A stretch of 64,000 nt of DNA from Ferrimonas balearica DSM 9799 (GTDB lineage: Bacteria > Pseudomonadota > Gammaproteobacteria > Enterobacterales > Shewanellaceae), in NCBI RefSeq assembly GCF_000148645.1, contig NC_014541.1:4177139-4241138 (forward strand). The letters are read 5' to 3'. The notes below the pieces were generated by a model that was given only the letters and a program-made list of their open reading frames with translations, was not told the DNA's origin and searched no databases. Shown piece after piece: positions 14,042-45,803 of the stretch (position 1 is its first letter; each line of letters opens with the position of its first letter). Made by a program: the position numbers and the translations under genes.

Positions 14042-14261
14042 CACTCTTCCTCGTGTGACTCTCTGCTGGAGCTTACGTTTACGTTATCGTCAGCTTACTG
14101 AAAAAGTGACCAAGTTCACAGAGGGAGGCGTAGGAACAGTACAGGAGGGCGGCAAGAATCGGACAAATTCGGCAAGATCCTCTCACGGCGGCCCGTCAAA
14201 ATGTGATCCCAACTGATTGTCCGAGTCGCTGGCTATACTTTACACTGCAAGCAGTTGTTAA

Positions 14262-14356
14262 CCGAGCCCGTCGGTACCTAAGTCCAGCAAGGGATATGGT
14301 CGTCGGGCCGTGGCATCAGGCCACCGGGGTAGATTGAGAAAGTTAATCTGCCTTCC
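14262..14356 (+). promoter_or_regulatory. Candidate molybdenum-cofactor (MOCO) riboswitch
   Basis: The moaA leader folds into a compact set of helices: GCCCG (14266-14270) with CGGGC (14304-14308), a GTGGC-ATCAG-GCCAC hairpin (14310-14324), and GGTAGATT (14328-14335) with AATCTGCC (14345-14352), close to the ribosome site. A possible -10 (TATACT) lies at 14233. MOCO motif RNAs sit in exactly this place upstream of moaA. I recognise the position and folding pattern, not every consensus base. Confidence 0.55.
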
Positions 14357-14378
14357 TCTATTTTAGGAAAGGTGACAC

Positions 14379-15359
14379 ATGCGAGAGCTCCAGGACCGAT
14401 TCGGTCGCAGCTTCCCATACCTGCGCCTGTCGATCACAGACGCCTGCAATTTTAAGTGCGAATACTGTCTGCCTAACGGCTACCACCCCGACGGCAAGCC
14501 CCGATTTATGACGCTGGACGAGATCCGGCGGGTTTTGCATGCCTTCTCCACGGTGGGCATGCGCAAAGTGCGCATCACCGGCGGCGAGCCCACCCTGCGT
14601 AAGGACTTCGAAGAGGTCCTGCAGCTGGCCGCCAACACCCCCGGCGTTGATACCATCGCCACCACCACCAACGGTTACCGCCTGGCCGAGCATGCCCGGG
14701 CCTGGCATCAGGCCGGTCTGTCTCAGGTCAACGTTTCGGTCGACAGCCTCGACCCTGCCAATTTCCAGCGCATCACCGGCGACAGCCGGTTTGATCTGGT
14801 GATGAAGGGGATCGACGCCGCCCTGAACGAGGGCTACCGCAAGGTGAAGATCAACGTGGTATTACTGAAGGGGCTGAACGGTGGCGAGCTGCCGCTGTTC
14901 CTCGACTACATCAAGCACCAGCCGGTCGACCTGCGCTTTATTGAGCTGATGGAAACCGGCCTGCACCACGACTACTTCCAGGCCCATCACTTGCCCGGCA
15001 CGGTGATCCAGGCGCAACTGGAACGCCAGGGCTGGCAGTTGGATCCCCGCGGCCCGGACGATGGCCCGGCCCTCAACTACAGCCACCCGGATTACGCCGG
15101 CCGTATCGGCCTGATCATGCCTTACGCCAAAGATTTCTGTGCCAGTTGCAACCGTCTGCGGGTCTCCGCCATCGGCAAACTGCACCTGTGCCTGTTCACC
15201 GAGGCCGGCATTGAGCTGCGTGATCTGCTCGGCAGCGACGACCAGCAGGAAGAGCTGATCGCCCGGCTGCACGCCGCCCTGGGCCAGAAACACCAAACCC
15301 ATTACCTCCACGAGGGGGACGCCGGAGCCACACCACACCTGGCCTCCATCGGCGGATAA
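14379..15359 (+). CDS. moaA: GTP 3',8-cyclase MoaA
   Basis: This 326-residue radical SAM enzyme starts molybdopterin synthesis by converting GTP to 3',8-cyclo-GTP. The N-terminal cluster motif is CNFKCEYC and the C-terminal one is CASCNRLRVS...C. The protein ends in GG, the tail needed to reactivate the enzyme. ITGGEPTLR is the SAM-binding GGE. It is first gene of moaABCDE, behind a structured leader and a strong AGGAAAGG site. Confidence 0.97.
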   Translation: MRELQDRFGRSFPYLRLSITDACNFKCEYCLPNGYHPDGKPRFMTLDEIRRVLHAFSTVGMRKVRITGGEPTLRKDFEEVLQLAANTPGVDTIATTTNGYRLAEHARAWHQAGLSQVNVSVDSLDPANFQRITGDSRFDLVMKGIDAALNEGYRKVKINVVLLKGLNGGELPLFLDYIKHQPVDLRFIELMETGLHHDYFQAHHLPGTVIQAQLERQGWQLDPRGPDDGPALNYSHPDYAGRIGLIMPYAKDFCASCNRLRVSAIGKLHLCLFTEAGIELRDLLGSDDQQEELIARLHAALGQKHQTHYLHEGDAGATPHLASIGG

Positions 15360-24813: not shown

Positions 24814-25563
24814 TTAACCGCAGACCGGACAACCCGGTCGCTTGGGCAGGCCCATTTCGCGGAACTCCATGGTCATGGCGTCGATCATCAGGATGCGGCC
24901 CGACAGGGTGCGCCCCATACCGGAGATCTGCTTCACCGCTTCGGTCGCCTGCAGACAGCCCACCATGCCCACCACCGGGGCCAGGATGCCACTCTCCACA
25001 CAAGACAACTGTTGCTCGCCGAACAGGCTGGCAAAGCACTGATAGCAGGGCTTGTCCTCACCATAATCAAAGACGGTGACCAGCCCCTCCATGCGGATGG
25101 CAGCAGCGGAGATCAGCGGCACCTTCGCCTCGAAGCAGAACCGGTTCAGTTGTTCGCGGGTCATCAGGTTGTCGGTGCAATCCAGCACAATGCTGTGCTC
25201 GGCCACGGCGGCCGCCAGCTCCGGCTCATCCAGCAGACGGTCCACCACGTTGATGGTGACGTGGGGGTTCAGGCCGGACAACTCTTCGGCGGCGGAGCGC
25301 GCCTTATTGATGCCGATGCGGCTGTCCCGGTGCAGCACCTGCCGCTGCAGGTTGGACAGCTCAACATGGTCAAAGTCCACCAGGGTGATCTCACCGATGC
25401 CGGCGGTCACCAGATACTGAGCAGCGGCACAGCCCAGGCCCCCCGCCCCCAGCACCAGCGCTTTGGCCTGTTTCAACGCTTCCTGGCCATCCATGTCGAA
25501 CGCCCGGATCACGATCTGGCGGTTGTAACGCAGCAGCTCCTGATCGGAGAGGATCTCGTCCAT
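24814..25563 (-). CDS. moeB: Molybdopterin-synthase adenylyltransferase MoeB
   Basis: This 249-residue E1-like enzyme adenylates the C-terminus of MoaD. It shows the nucleotide loop GAGGLGCAAAQYL, LVDFDHVELSNLQRQ, DCTDN and two zinc CxxC pairs (CYQC and CPVC at the C-terminus). The start overlaps the moeA stop by one base. Length matches E. coli MoeB. Confidence 0.97.
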   Translation of the reverse strand: MDEILSDQELLRYNRQIVIRAFDMDGQEALKQAKALVLGAGGLGCAAAQYLVTAGIGEITLVDFDHVELSNLQRQVLHRDSRIGINKARSAAEELSGLNPHVTINVVDRLLDEPELAAAVAEHSIVLDCTDNLMTREQLNRFCFEAKVPLISAAAIRMEGLVTVFDYGEDKPCYQCFASLFGEQQLSCVESGILAPVVGMVGCLQATEAVKQISGMGRTLSGRILMIDAMTMEFREMGLPKRPGCPVCG

Positions 25564-26810
25564 TACAAGCCTCCCAGCACCGCGTTAAAGGGCTCAACCG
25601 TGACCCGGCTGCCTGCGGCGGTGTCGCCCTGCTCGCGCGGCAGGATAATAAAGCAGTTGGCCCGGCTCATGGAGGTGGTCATGTCGGACCCCTGAGCGCC
25701 GGTGGAGGTGACGATCAGAGTGCCGTCTTCGGCGCGGGACAGAATGCCGCGTTGGTACTCCTGGCGGCCCGGCGCTTTGCGCAGGTCATCCTGCAGCACC
25801 GCGTCGAGGGTCAGAGCCGGACGGAAGGGCTCACCGGCCAGGTGGGCCAGCAGCGGCTGCACCAGCTGGTAGCAGGTCACCATGGAAGAGACCGGGTTCC
25901 CCGGCAGGCCGCAGAACCAGGCGTTGGGCAGACGGCCAAAGGCAAAGGGTTTGCCCGGCTTGATGGCCAGCTTCCAGAAGCTGATCTGGCCCATCTCGTC
26001 CAGCACTACCTTGATAAAGTCCGCTTCACCCACCGAAACGCCGCCGGAGGTGATCACCACATCCGCTTCCGCATCGGCGCGGCGGAACGCCGCACGCACC
26101 TGCTCAAGGTCATCGGGGATCACGCCCAGATCTCGCACCTCGCACCCCATGGCGGTCAGCATGCTGCGCAGAGCGTGGCGGTTGGAGTCATAGATTTCCC
26201 CCACCGCCAGCTCAGTGCCCGGGGCTTTCAGTTCATCACCGGTGGAGAACAGCGCCACCACCAGCTTGGGCCGCACCGGTACCTCAGCCACACCAACGGT
26301 GGCCAGCACACCCACTTCGGCGGCACTGATGCGGGTGCCCGCTCTCAACACGACAGTGCCGGCACGCAGTTCACTGCCGCGACTGCGGACAAAGTGGCCC
26401 GCACGGACGGACTCGGTAAATCGGACCCGGTCTTCGCCTTCGGCTTCCACCACTTCCTGCATCACGATGCTGTCCAGACCGGCGGGCAGGGCTGCACCGG
26501 TCATAATGCGCACGCACTGGCCCGGGCCCACTTCCCCCTCAAACGGCACCCCGGCAAACGCCTTGCCTGCCACGGTCAGCACCGCGCCCTCTGCCACGTC
26601 GGCAGCGCGAACGGCGTACCCGTCCATGGCAGAGTTGTCGAAGGGCGGCAGGTCGATGGCGGCGGCAATGTCCCTGGCCAGTACCCGACCCGGGCACTGT
26701 TCCAGCGACACCCACTGCTCCGTGTCCAGCGGCGCAACCTGTTCGCGCATCCGCGCAAGGGCATCAGCGGGCAGCATCAGCCCGGGTTGGCTACAGCAAT
26801 CGTGACTCAT
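25563..26810 (-). CDS. moeA: Molybdopterin molybdenumtransferase MoeA
   Basis: This 415-residue enzyme inserts molybdenum into adenylated molybdopterin. Conserved blocks: DNSAMDGYAV, RIMTGAALPAGLD, SRGSELRAG, GDELKAPG, TSGGVSVGEADF, KPGKPFAFG, GLPGNPVSS. It forms a two-gene operon with moeB, split from moaABCDE by about 8 kb. Confidence 0.97.
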   Translation of the reverse strand: MSHDCCSQPGLMLPADALARMREQVAPLDTEQWVSLEQCPGRVLARDIAAAIDLPPFDNSAMDGYAVRAADVAEGAVLTVAGKAFAGVPFEGEVGPGQCVRIMTGAALPAGLDSIVMQEVVEAEGEDRVRFTESVRAGHFVRSRGSELRAGTVVLRAGTRISAAEVGVLATVGVAEVPVRPKLVVALFSTGDELKAPGTELAVGEIYDSNRHALRSMLTAMGCEVRDLGVIPDDLEQVRAAFRRADAEADVVITSGGVSVGEADFIKVVLDEMGQISFWKLAIKPGKPFAFGRLPNAWFCGLPGNPVSSMVTCYQLVQPLLAHLAGEPFRPALTLDAVLQDDLRKAPGRQEYQRGILSRAEDGTLIVTSTGAQGSDMTTSMSRANCFIILPREQGDTAAGSRVTVEPFNAVLGGL

Positions 26811-27662: not shown

Positions 27663-28315
27663 TGAGCACTGCGCAACACTTCTCTTCCGACTGGCAGCAA
27701 CGCTGCCGCCAATGGGCCGCCGCCGCAGGCAGCGACGGTGCCCATGACCTGACTCACATCGAACGGGTGGTGGCCACCGCCACCCGCTTGGGCCAGCACG
27801 CCAACGCCAACCTCGATATCATCCTGCCCGCGGCCTGGCTTCATGACGTGGTGCTGGTGGACAAGCGCGACCCGCGCCGCAGCCAGGCCTCCCAGCTGAG
27901 TGCTGATAAGGCGGTGGCCCTGCTGGCCGAGGCCGGGTACCCGACCCAGCTGCTGGACGCCATCCACCATGCCATCGCATCCCACAGTTGGTCGGCCGGC
28001 ATCGAGCCCACCAGCCTGGAAGCCCAGATTGTGCAAGACGCCGACCGGCTGGATGCGCTGGGCGCCATCGGCCTGTCCCGCTGCCTGATGCTGGGGGGGC
28101 AGTGGAACCGCGAGCTGTACAACGCGGACGATCCGCTGGGCCAACAGCGCGACTGGGACGACAACCAGTACAACCTGGACCACCTGTTTATTAAACTGCA
28201 GCACCTGCCCGGTCAGCTTCGGACGGAAGCCGGTCGCATCGAGGGCCAGCGCCGCTGGGCCTGGATGCAGGGTTATCTCGACCAACTGGCCATCGAACTC
28301 GGACTCAAGCCATGA
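27662..28315 (+). CDS. HD-domain phosphohydrolase (YedJ-like)
   Basis: This 217-residue soluble protein has HD motif HDLTHIERVV, AAWLHDVVL, HHAIASHSW and a final Asp in VQDADRLDALGAIG, all metal ligands of the HD superfamily. It overlaps the yhhQ stop (TGATG) and the next gene by 4 bases, so the three are co-translated. The substrate is unknown. Confidence 0.88.
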   Translation: MSTAQHFSSDWQQRCRQWAAAAGSDGAHDLTHIERVVATATRLGQHANANLDIILPAAWLHDVVLVDKRDPRRSQASQLSADKAVALLAEAGYPTQLLDAIHHAIASHSWSAGIEPTSLEAQIVQDADRLDALGAIGLSRCLMLGGQWNRELYNADDPLGQQRDWDDNQYNLDHLFIKLQHLPGQLRTEAGRIEGQRRWAWMQGYLDQLAIELGLKP

Positions 28316-28758
28316 TTCAGCAAACCATTCGCCCAGGCACCATCGAAGAGGTGGTGGCCATCAGTCAACAGATCCCGGAATTCAACGCTCCCTACGGCCG
28401 CGATGAGTACCAGCGCCGACTGGCCGATACCACTCACCTGATCCAGGTGGCAGAGGTGCAGGGCGAGCTGGCGGGTTTCAAGGTGGGCTACCAGCTGGAC
28501 GATGGCGTGTTCTACTCCTGGATGGGCGGCATTGTGCCGGATTTCCGGGCATTGGGACTGGCCAGCCAGATGCTGGCGCAGCAGGAGCAGTGGGCCACTG
28601 AGCAGGGTTACCACAGCCTGAAAGTGAAAAGCCGCAACCGCTACGCCACCATGGTGGCGATGTTGCTGCGTCACGGATATCAGATAGAAGCCTTTGAAGA
28701 TAAAGGGGAAACGGTGGCAGACCACCGCATCCACCTGCACAAAGAACTGAAAAAATAA
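28312..28758 (+). CDS. GNAT-family N-acetyltransferase
   Basis: This 148-residue protein has the acetyl-CoA loop region VPDFRALGLASQML (a V-x-x-x-x-R-x-x-G-x-A form of the GNAT motif A) and KVKSRNRYATMVAMLLRHGY. It is last in the yhhQ-HD operon. The acceptor is unknown. Confidence 0.85.
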   Translation: MIQQTIRPGTIEEVVAISQQIPEFNAPYGRDEYQRRLADTTHLIQVAEVQGELAGFKVGYQLDDGVFYSWMGGIVPDFRALGLASQMLAQQEQWATEQGYHSLKVKSRNRYATMVAMLLRHGYQIEAFEDKGETVADHRIHLHKELKK

Positions 28759-28768
28759 GGATCCGAGC

Positions 28769-28803
28769 TTGCAAGAGTAAATGATATTGATTATCGTTTA
28801 CTT
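28769..28803 (+). promoter_or_regulatory. Fur box over the promoter of the RyhB-type RNA
   Basis: A near-perfect dyad at 28777-28801 (arms GTAAATGATA and TATCGTTTAC around TTGAT) matches the Fur consensus. It covers the spacer and -10 of a promoter: TTGCAA at 28769-28774, 17 bp, TATCGT at 28792-28797. Iron-loaded Fur would block transcription from about 28804. Confidence 0.82.
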
Positions 28804-28894
28804 GCGTTCCAATCCGGTGAGCCGCTCACACTCACCACCAACGCACATTGCTCACACATTGGCAGGCCAGCGCTCACACTGGCCTGTTTTTTTT
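28804..28894 (+). ncRNA. ryhB: RyhB-type iron-stress small RNA
   Basis: The transcript of about 91 nt starts with GCG and holds the RyhB core ACATTGCTCACA at 28845-28856, the conserved stretch that pairs with target mRNAs. It ends in a rho-independent terminator (AGGCCAG / CTGGCCT, 28864-28885, then eight T). Length, core and Fur-controlled promoter all match E. coli RyhB (90 nt), which with Hfq represses iron-using proteins when iron is scarce. It is convergent with elbB and shares its 3' region. Confidence 0.85.
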
Positions 28895-28898
28895 GCGT

Positions 28899-29558
28899 TC
28901 AGCGCTGGCACATCGCCACAACCTGCTGCACCAGCTTATCGATGCCCTCAGCCGCCTCAGCAACATTGCCCGCCAACATATAAGCCGGTGACGACACCAC
29001 CTGATGCACCTCATCCACTACGATGTCGGTCACCAGGCAGTCCTGGTGGGCGCCGCCCATCTGGGTGAACGCCTCAGCAGTGCCGGCGTCGGTGCCGATG
29101 GTGCCCTTTACCCCTTCACCATAAAGCTTCGGCAGCATGATCGGCGCGATGCAGAGAAAGCCACTGGGCTTGCCGGCGGCGGTAAAGGCCCGACAGGCCG
29201 CCATCACGTCCTCTTCCACCTCGCAGCCGGCACCGGCCACGGCAAAATCACACAGGTTTTTGGCGGCACCAAAACCGCCGGGCAGGATCACCGCGGCAAA
29301 GTCATCCACCACCAGTGCAGACAGTGGCTGGATCTCGCCTCGGGCGATGCGGGCCGATTCGACCAGGATATTGCGCTGTTCACCCTCGGCCACCTCGCCA
29401 GTGAGGTGGTTCACCACATGGCGCTGGTCGCGGTCCGGAGCAAAACACTGATAAGCCACACCCGCACGGGACAATGACAACAGGGTAAGGACCGATTCAT
29501 GGATCTCGCTGCCGTCAAAAACGCCGCAACCACTCAAAATCACTGCGATGGGTTTCAT
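28899..29558 (-). CDS. elbB: Isoprenoid biosynthesis glyoxalase ElbB
   Basis: This 219-residue DJ-1/PfpI-fold protein has MKPIAVILSGCGVFDGSEIHE (read in parts), VILPGGFGAAKNLCDFA, and a nucleophile elbow with Cys in GFLCIAPIML. E. coli ElbB shows glyoxalase activity. The start is the ATG at 29558 with AGGAG upstream. It lies divergent from polA across the GATC/DnaA-box region. Confidence 0.93.
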   Translation of the reverse strand: MKPIAVILSGCGVFDGSEIHESVLTLLSLSRAGVAYQCFAPDRDQRHVVNHLTGEVAEGEQRNILVESARIARGEIQPLSALVVDDFAAVILPGGFGAAKNLCDFAVAGAGCEVEEDVMAACRAFTAAGKPSGFLCIAPIMLPKLYGEGVKGTIGTDAGTAEAFTQMGGAHQDCLVTDIVVDEVHQVVSSPAYMLAGNVAEAAEGIDKLVQQVVAMCQR

Positions 29559-29579
29559 GCCAAGACTCCTCTTTATTCC

Positions 29580-29981
29580 TTTAGTAGATTCAAACATATG
29601 TTCTATATGACTAAGGGTTTTAACAAATTTTTTACCGCGGGGTGGACCTGGTTAAATAGTATGCTAAGTTATCCTTCGACTTCAGGAAGGAACCTGTCGT
29701 TGTTCCCCCCTTCCCTGCCGATATCAGTCCAGTGCCAATGTCAATATCCACATTGCAGTGATCGGTCAGATCGCATTTTGAAGTCAAGCGATGATCCCTT
29801 GGATCCCGCATGGAAACTGGGTTTGCAGGAAAAACAGAGATCCCGATCACGGATCCCGATCCTTTTGTCCACAACCACTGTTCACAAAGTTATCCACAGC
29901 TTGAGCGCTGCGCTTTGCCATGCCTGACTCACTGGCAAATCGCCCCAGTAACATGGCATCCTAGCTGCCTTATATCCACAG
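29580..29981. other. oriC-like region: GATC cluster and DnaA boxes upstream of polA
   Basis: Eight GATC sites fall in 102 bp (29760-29861), several inside repeats of GATCCCG. One perfect DnaA box TTATCCACA lies at 29890-29898. Single-mismatch boxes lie at 29744-29752, 29865-29873 and 29972-29980. An AT-rich stretch lies at about 29580-29660. There is no ORF with a ribosome site. E. coli polA is known to be DnaA-stimulated, so this may be a polA control region, a DnaA-titrating or SeqA locus, or an origin. The usual origin neighbours (mnmG, mioC, dnaA) are not in view. Confidence 0.55.
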
Positions 29982-33800: not shown

Positions 33801-33969
33801 GGGGGTCTCCAATCAGGTCAGCAGAGCAGCGGGCCGGGATCACAAAACGACCCCGAGCTTAGACCTGGCTCAGATTTCGTGTAAAATGCCGCTGCGTGCT
33901 CCCCACAGTGTAACAGGGGACCCATGCCGCAGGGAAAGAAACGCCACCGATATAATAAGTTGGAACACC

Positions 33970-45688: not shown

Positions 45689-45715
45689 CCCCGGCAAACC
45701 GTGATTTTGCCGGGG
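45689..45715 (+). other. Hairpin overlapping the tRNA 5' end
   Basis: CCCCGGCAAA (45689-45698) and TTTGCCGGGG (45706-45715) are perfect 10-bp inverse arms. The 3' arm contains the first four bases of the tRNA acceptor stem. A leader transcript would compete with tRNA folding. Confidence 0.65.
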
Positions 45716-45803
45716 ACGTAGCTCAATGGTAGAGCAGCGGGTTTATACTCCGTAGCGCCAGATAAGCGGCTGGTTGTGGGTTCGAGTCCCACCGTCCCTA
45801 CCA
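45712..45803 (+). tRNA. Class II tRNA with anticodon UAU (Ile by anticodon, identity uncertain)
   Basis: The 92-nt cloverleaf is complete with encoded CCA. Acceptor GGGGACG pairs with CGTCCCT (first pair G-U), D stem GCTC/GAGC around AATGGTA, anticodon stem GCGGG/TCCGT with loop TTTATAC, T arm GTGGG-TTCGAGT-CCCAC, discriminator A. The variable region is 22 nt and forms its own stem (CCAG/CTGG). Long variable arms belong to Leu, Ser, Tyr and Sec tRNAs, none of which reads AUA. The function is therefore open. Confidence 0.8.

Follow-up and report, generated by a model that had tools for sequence, protein, structure and literature searches.

Does the genus Ferrimonas, metal-reducing marine bacteria with cytochrome-dependent energy metabolism, possess a RyhB gene? 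RyhB is a small RNA of Gram-negative bacteria which is made under iron shortage and switches off iron-rich proteins. The question was raised by a locus of F. balearica DSM 9799, in a stretch of 64,000 nucleotides that was analysed as a whole (the window). An earlier note on this stretch had placed an unlisted RyhB-type RNA at 28769-28894, with a Fur box over its promoter, a start at the right spacing, the RyhB core and a terminator closing an RNA of 91 nt, and on reading of the sequence these coordinates proved correct (Table 1). In the literature searched, which left most subscription journals outside its coverage, no RyhB described for Ferrimonas and no work on small RNAs of the genus were found, and the papers containing "sRNA" concerned other subjects as far as their accessible text goes.

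Table 1. Positions of the predicted RNA gene, its parts and the neighbouring features in the window
Feature	Position	Strand	Basis or remark
GNAT acetyltransferase gene	28312..28758	+	upstream neighbour; common to G029 ryhB locus
-35 element TTGCAA	28769..28774	+	read from sequence
Fur box, 15/19 to consensus	28777..28795	.	best 19-mer of window
Second, overlapping Fur site, 14/19	28783-28801		second-best 19-mer of window
-10 element TATCGT	28792..28797	+	17 nt from -35; read from sequence
RyhB orthologue, predicted 91-nt small RNA	28804..28894	+	model R1 spans 28804-28892, E 3.5e-9
5' end GCGUUCCAA, proposed second seed	28804..28812	+	identical in 36/36 aligned copies
Hairpin 1, stem GGUGAG/CUCACC, loop CCGCUCACA	28816..28836	+	fold
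GCTCACAC copy 1, loop and first stem base of hairpin 1	28824..28831	+	
RyhB core ACATTGCTCACA, predicted main seed	28845..28856	+	sequence match and alignment
GCTCACAC copy 2, within core	28850..28857	+	
Intrinsic terminator and T run	28861..28894	+	terminator-like stem (10 pairs), then T8
GCTCACAC copy 3, terminator loop	28872..28879	+	
elbB	28899..29597	-	convergent neighbour; NF008747, 3.6e-96
GTTGGAAC, possible pairing site for RNA 5' end, weak in F. balearica	33959..33966	+	just upstream of cytochrome c start 33970

Fur sites were scored as 19-mers against the consensus GATAATGATAATCATTATC. The 15/19 site overlaps the -35/-10 pair as had been claimed, and apart from it and the overlapping second site no 19-mer in the rest of the window exceeded 13/19. 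Among 30 order-1 Markov sequences of 64 kb, none contained a 15/19 site. A consensus search allowing up to 3 mismatches returned no site, that at 28777-28795 having 4. The promoter TTGCAA-N17-TATCGT agreed with the consensus at 8/12 positions and fell under the cutoff of the promoter scan, which called none at the locus. A TTGCA-type hexamer at similar spacing was visible by eye in relatives found by similarity, while the later list of aligned copies came from a search requiring this hexamer. Upstream of all 36 aligned copies a Fur-box-like site was present with 12 to 16 of 19 positions, reaching 15/19 in genomes G000, G003, G004 and G007 and only 12/19 in G006, G009 and G011. The start at 28804 was backed by Ferrimonas and Shewanella copies starting with GCGTTCCAA there, and by a match of 127 nt in S. 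oneidensis.

The Rfam RyhB model (RF00057, Rfam 15) gave no match in the window at its gathering level or even at E 10, which leaves the locus outside that Rfam family and bears out its description as unlisted. The RyhB of S. oneidensis also fails this model (21.4 bits vs a cutoff of 55), and at gathering level none was recognised in 17 of 18 related loci scanned, the sole hit being L014 in G046, a genome of another family. In this way the reference RNA library misses RyhB in the family loci tested. A covariance model, R1, was built from 36 family copies, the window's sequence included, and scored the window at 52.8 bits (E 3.5e-9). The RyhB genes of S. oneidensis and G046 were outside these 36 training sequences; R1 matched the former over 127 nt at G116:C1:4920219-4920345 with 88.2 bits (E 1.5e-16), G116 being taken as S. 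oneidensis MR-1 as inferred from position, and the latter, which is recognised by Rfam and lies beside polA, with 25.6 bits (E 0.0015). In the accessible text of the published accounts, S. oneidensis RyhB is given as "~127 nt" from a mapped start and a predicted terminator, together with a Northern blot (PMC5826389), and by RACE as 168 nt at 4920234-4920401 (PMC2964681). The RACE start at 4920234 lies 15 nt downstream of the R1 match start at 4920219, which speaks against the start placed at 28804, and the RACE RNA overlaps the match and ends later. The same accessible text states that this gene was found in 2010 via gene order, after searches with BLAST and the Rfam model had been unsuccessful (PMC2964681).

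Gene order was also informative for the locus studied here. The RNA is preceded in the window by VUT (27000), HD (27662) and GNAT (28312) and followed by elbB (28899), polA (29982), yihA (33162), cytochrome c4 (33970) and hemN (37382), where "c4" is our name for a di-haem cytochrome c, after SO_4666. In G029, ryhB directly follows VUT and GNAT, the HD gene is missing, and the stretch contains neither polA nor elbB. In G046, ryhB stands upstream of polA, then yihA, the cytochrome and hemN, in a stretch without GNAT, VUT or elbB. The window carries both halves, the upstream side of G029 and the polA side of G046, and gene order therefore ties it to both loci. As marks of family membership, VUT and GNAT were found upstream both here and in G029, and the Fur box over the promoter at 15/19, the latter judged on sequence only. 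The S. oneidensis gene sits between SO_4716 and SO_4717, and its downstream gene differs from the window's. As a separate observation, about 5 nt separate the end of elbB from the T run, with elbB transcribed in the direction of the run (28861-28899); the terminator stem had no T run on the minus strand by eye, and transcripts extending past the end of elbB could overlap the RNA in antisense.

Because one model joins the window and S. oneidensis loci and the neighbours agree, orthology with Shewanella RyhB is demonstrated at the level of sequence model and gene order, and the earlier assignment to the RyhB type holds. The locus is very probably the Ferrimonas orthologue in the full sense, namely a Fur-repressed, Hfq-dependent RNA of about 91 nt that would pair over the start regions of iron-protein mRNAs. 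A Fur-controlled RNA of independent origin (as PrrF and NrrF), with the same core by convergence, would suit the missing Rfam RyhB match and the middle of the RNA, which is unalignable with the longer family copies; yet the 5' nonamer, core, promoter layout, terminator position and neighbours are all common and a single model joins the loci, which makes such an origin very improbable. PrrF of Pseudomonas (RF00444) is repressed by Fur and represses iron proteins, as RyhB does. Tandem copies in some Ferrimonas and Shewanella genomes resemble the arrangement of PrrF, whereas the PrrF model gave no match in the window at the gathering cutoff or at E 10, and 21 bits (cutoff 90, E 0.49) at the S. 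oneidensis locus.

The transcript itself was then considered from its fold and conservation. The core ACATTGCTCACA, present as claimed, is single in the window and single in the 4.28-Mb genome (4,279,159 bases). The predicted 91 nt, closed by a terminator as the earlier reading had it, folded at -29.1 kcal/mol (z -3.67), and 0/200 shuffles were equally stable. Across the 36 aligned copies, the core positions CA-TGCT-A were fixed and the first nine bases GCGTTCCAA were invariant, the latter partly by construction, as the copies were collected with a search requiring CGTTCCAA. In six Ferrimonas copies, two pairs of hairpin 1 were changed at both positions, and every cell was paired. Shuffle controls of these six sequences reached two such pairs in 90/500 cases, the number of two-sided cells in 14/500 and the covariation score in 10/500, and slid controls paired 22 to 47 per cent compared with 96.6 in the real alignment. 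In the F. futtsuensis group hairpin 1 was not recovered, the fold giving just the terminator and a three-pair helix. The stem GCGUU/AACGC is invariant, and its pairing is unproven because the pairing sequences never vary. These data also bear on the idea that the site is no RNA gene, its Fur box serving another purpose, such as a small ORF or control of the convergent elbB by antisense. The nearness of elbB, which points at the T run from about 5 nt away, and a 95-codon ORF crossing the site would agree with this, but the length steps among Ferrimonas copies (91, 92, 89, 88, 87 nt) are not multiples of three, hairpin 1 shows two-sided changes, and the homologous S. oneidensis RNA, which has a different downstream gene, was detected according to the accessible text of both papers (PMC2964681, PMC5826389). 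We give this explanation very little credence and keep to a RyhB orthologue.

For distribution, the earlier prediction "in this lineage" was too narrow, since R1, run at E 0.01 under the stricter filtering applied to large searches, matched 146 of 152 family genomes. Copies from Shewanella were already published in 2010, as the available text shows (PMC2964681). Among the six misses, the copy of G104 breaks off at the locus end and G019 (62 per cent complete) has a doubtful copy, while relaxed filters gave no convincing match in G001, G010, G018 and G143 (best E 0.7, 3.9, 0.8 and 0.5). Twelve of 14 Ferrimonas genomes carried ryhB; because G001 and G010 show no copy, RyhB is not indispensable in the genus. 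The gene lies directly beside elbB in 11 Ferrimonas genomes and about 0.5 kb off in G011. Tandem copies occurred in G002 and G008, and G005 (L062) had an intact copy next to an apparently decayed tandem copy without a Fur box, which looks like a snapshot of copy loss. Between GNAT and elbB of G001 and G010 (L066, L067) no ryhB was seen, and the G001 gap contained sequence resembling by eye the flank of the G011 copy, perhaps a repeat element.

The same gene was found on contigs of F. marina, F. futtsuensis, F. sediminicola, F. kyonanensis, F. sediminum and F. balearica. Searching 84,980 genomes for the exact pattern GCGTTCCAA-N28-58-CATTGCTCACA returned 31 loci (8 in the Ferrimonas group, 12 in Shewanella and 11 elsewhere, those 11 without Fur box and terminator by eye), which is no full census, the gap limit omitting longer copies, that of S. 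oneidensis among them. A record labelled Marinobacter nauticus (L028, NZ_JAHVJZ010000005.1) held a Ferrimonas locus with 91 per cent over the query, as in G007, and is probably a mislabelled Ferrimonas. In G046, a second RyhB-like match (L071 9652-9738, E 0.019) beside the Rfam-recognised copy is likely an unlisted tandem RyhB in another family. The absence of a detected copy in G001 and G010 and the apparently decayed tandem copy in G005 would also accord with a decaying RyhB that is out of use in F. balearica. However, G000, G003, G004, G006 and G007 retain the core ACATTGCTCACA and the 5' end without change, stem changes compensate each other, and the Fur site stays at 15/19 in G000, G003, G004 and G007; disuse is thus highly unlikely, and a working RyhB remains our reading.

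The genome contains fur (NF006999, 3.3e-85; its sole FUR-family match) and hfq (NF001602, 3.6e-42). In S. oneidensis, RyhB destabilises cctA, scyA, omp35 and nrfA mRNA and Hfq is needed, as reported in the accessible text of PMC5826389. By analogy with Shewanella, Fur repression, use of Hfq and mRNA loss would be expected in Ferrimonas, and the F. balearica RNA is presumably expressed. When iron is sufficient, Fe-Fur would cover the promoter, and when iron falls the RNA of about 91 nt would be made, ending at its own terminator. Together with Hfq, its single-stranded core CAUUGCUCA would pair with mRNAs of iron-rich proteins across their start regions, and these mRNAs would then be left untranslated or degraded, the proposed targets being, in order, petABC (bc1 complex), nrfA and sodB. 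Where free, the 5' end GCGUUCCAA may act as second seed, for cytochrome c4 and, in the F. futtsuensis group, for sodB; in the F. balearica group it would be folded onto AACGC, with two extra copies of the core motif in hairpin loops. From homology and predicted pairing we infer Fur control and repression of iron enzymes in F. balearica, as the earlier note had predicted.

Targets were scored as duplex energy plus opening cost with our own script, which was checked in S. oneidensis on 176 start regions drawn from 12 stretches around positions where targets were expected. Among the 176, petA ranked 1, c4 3, mtrC 7, sodB 13, cymA 17 and cctA 24, and mtrA, inside an operon, 157; all seven are RyhB-responsive in the accessible text of PMC5826389. 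SO_3420 was too close to the end for scoring, and scyA, nrfA, omp35 and SO_4047 were unrecognised in the stretches. For F. balearica, 361 start regions were taken from longest-ORF calls in a G+C-rich genome and include spurious antisense ORFs; petA and sdhC were absent from them and were added by hand, the sdhC start being guessed. The pairing of petA beat all 361, and the other ranks against them were nrfA (NF008339) 5, sdhC 13 and sodB 90. Of 300 shuffled RNAs, 7 were as good for petA, 32 for nrfA and 57 for sodB, and 25 reached the summed score of petA, sodB, c4 and nrfA. Whole-duplex energies without accessibility did not separate the targets, with 83/300 shuffles as low. Cytochrome c4 found no support as a target in F. 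balearica, with rank 228/361 and with 266/300 and 69/100 shuffles as good once folding was counted.

The shuffle test was extended over 13 genomes, whose counts are not independent as the genomes are related. For petA, at most 6/100 shuffles were as good in 11 of them, with 24 in G011 and 37 in G002. For sodB (12 genomes scored, G011 left out), the count was 0 to 11 of 100 in 10 genomes, 19 in G000 and 54 in S. oneidensis, where the region near the start was scored and the site from the 176-region scan lies about 45 nt upstream. For c4, the six genomes of the F. futtsuensis group gave counts of 0 or 1 per 100 and S. oneidensis gave 2; G006 gave 1, at another site, G004 gave 11, and G000, G003, G007 and G011 gave 54 to 69. 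The target list and seeds being predictions from pairing, these results suggested petA (petABC, bc1 complex) as the best-supported target, nrfA as the next, and sodB as a weak one in F. balearica once folding is counted. The large subunit of glutamate synthase (NF008730), an iron-sulphur enzyme, was the best of the 361, its start region pairing with the RNA's first 12 bases, and by this prediction is a possible new RyhB target. Its gene lies at L242 7377-11828, about 0.7 Mb in the window's genome.

The seeds themselves appeared to vary among relatives. The c4 leader of S. oneidensis has UUGGAACGC at the ribosome-binding site, with nine perfect pairs to GCGUUCCAA. Counted over 25 of the 31 genomes with a match, TTGGAAC stood directly before the c4 start in 14/14 Ferrimonas genomes, 4/6 other family genomes and 0/5 from other families. 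G001, G010 and G018 retain it without a detected ryhB, and conservation of the motif alone is therefore no proof of c4 pairing. Cytochrome c4 is listed as RyhB-responsive in PMC5826389, the accessible text of which gives no pairing site for it. Over the sodB start codon, the leader reads GAGCAATG, matching the core, in G000, G003, G004, G006 and G007, and GAACGC, matching the RNA's first six bases, in G002, G005, G008, G009, G012 and G013; elsewhere it reads TTAGCAATG (G001 and G011) or TTAGCATG (G010). The 91 nt contain three copies of the motif GCTCACAC and the window has two more on either strand; in 20,000 dinucleotide shuffles of the RNA three copies never arose and two arose in 9. Of the heptamer GCTCACA, G000, G003, G004 and G007 have three copies each and G006 has two, as do 5/8 listed RNAs of the F. 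futtsuensis group; no listed Shewanella-type RNA has more than one. From these sequences, the pairing segments of RyhB seem to have been rearranged and copied within Ferrimonas.

A more specific scheme is put forward tentatively, and we would sooner expect it to fail than to hold. The family RyhB would be a two-seed RNA, with the 5' GCGUUCCAA serving leaders such as that of c4 and the core serving petA; Ferrimonas would have rewired these seeds, sodB being bound by the core or by the 5' end according to clade, and in the F. balearica clade the 5' end would have been closed off and GCUCACAC copied into the loops of two hairpins. If true, a rewired two-seed RNA with copies of GCUCACAC could hold several mRNAs. 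The clade differences offer natural variants of how a small RNA changes seeds while retaining its targets.

Compared with known systems, the F. balearica locus resembles S. oneidensis RyhB in the Fur box over the promoter (15/19 in both), the 5' GCGUUCCAA, the core CAUUGCUCACAC and the terminator. The predicted Ferrimonas targets petABC, nrfA, sodB and c4 respond to RyhB there, according to the accessible text of two papers (PMC5826389, PMC2964681). The F. balearica RNA is predicted at 91 nt, whereas that of S. oneidensis has 127 nt by R1 and 168 nt by RACE; the latter has one GCUCACAC and the former three, and in the predicted folds the 5' end is free in S. oneidensis and paired with AACGC in F. 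balearica. The locus shares the core ACATTGCTCACA, Fur box and terminator with RyhB of Enterobacteriaceae and Vibrio (RF00057), and the G046 copy also lies beside polA; it differs in being unrecognised by the Rfam model, and the 5' end of the G046 copy is different. TCA-cycle genes belong to the E. coli RyhB regulon and are spared by S. oneidensis RyhB, according to the accessible text of PMC2964681. The kind of RNA is thus already known, and the details of the seeds are the part worth testing. An iron-sparing RNA is now placed in a genus whose energy metabolism leans on cytochromes.

Other features were also observed in the window. A molybdenum cofactor riboswitch (RF01055, 8.6e-14) at 14247-14390 lies just before moaA at 14379 (TIGR02666), and moeA and a ThiF-family gene are at 24814-26810. 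A tRNA match (RF00005) with a long insert in the variable region was found at 45712-45800.
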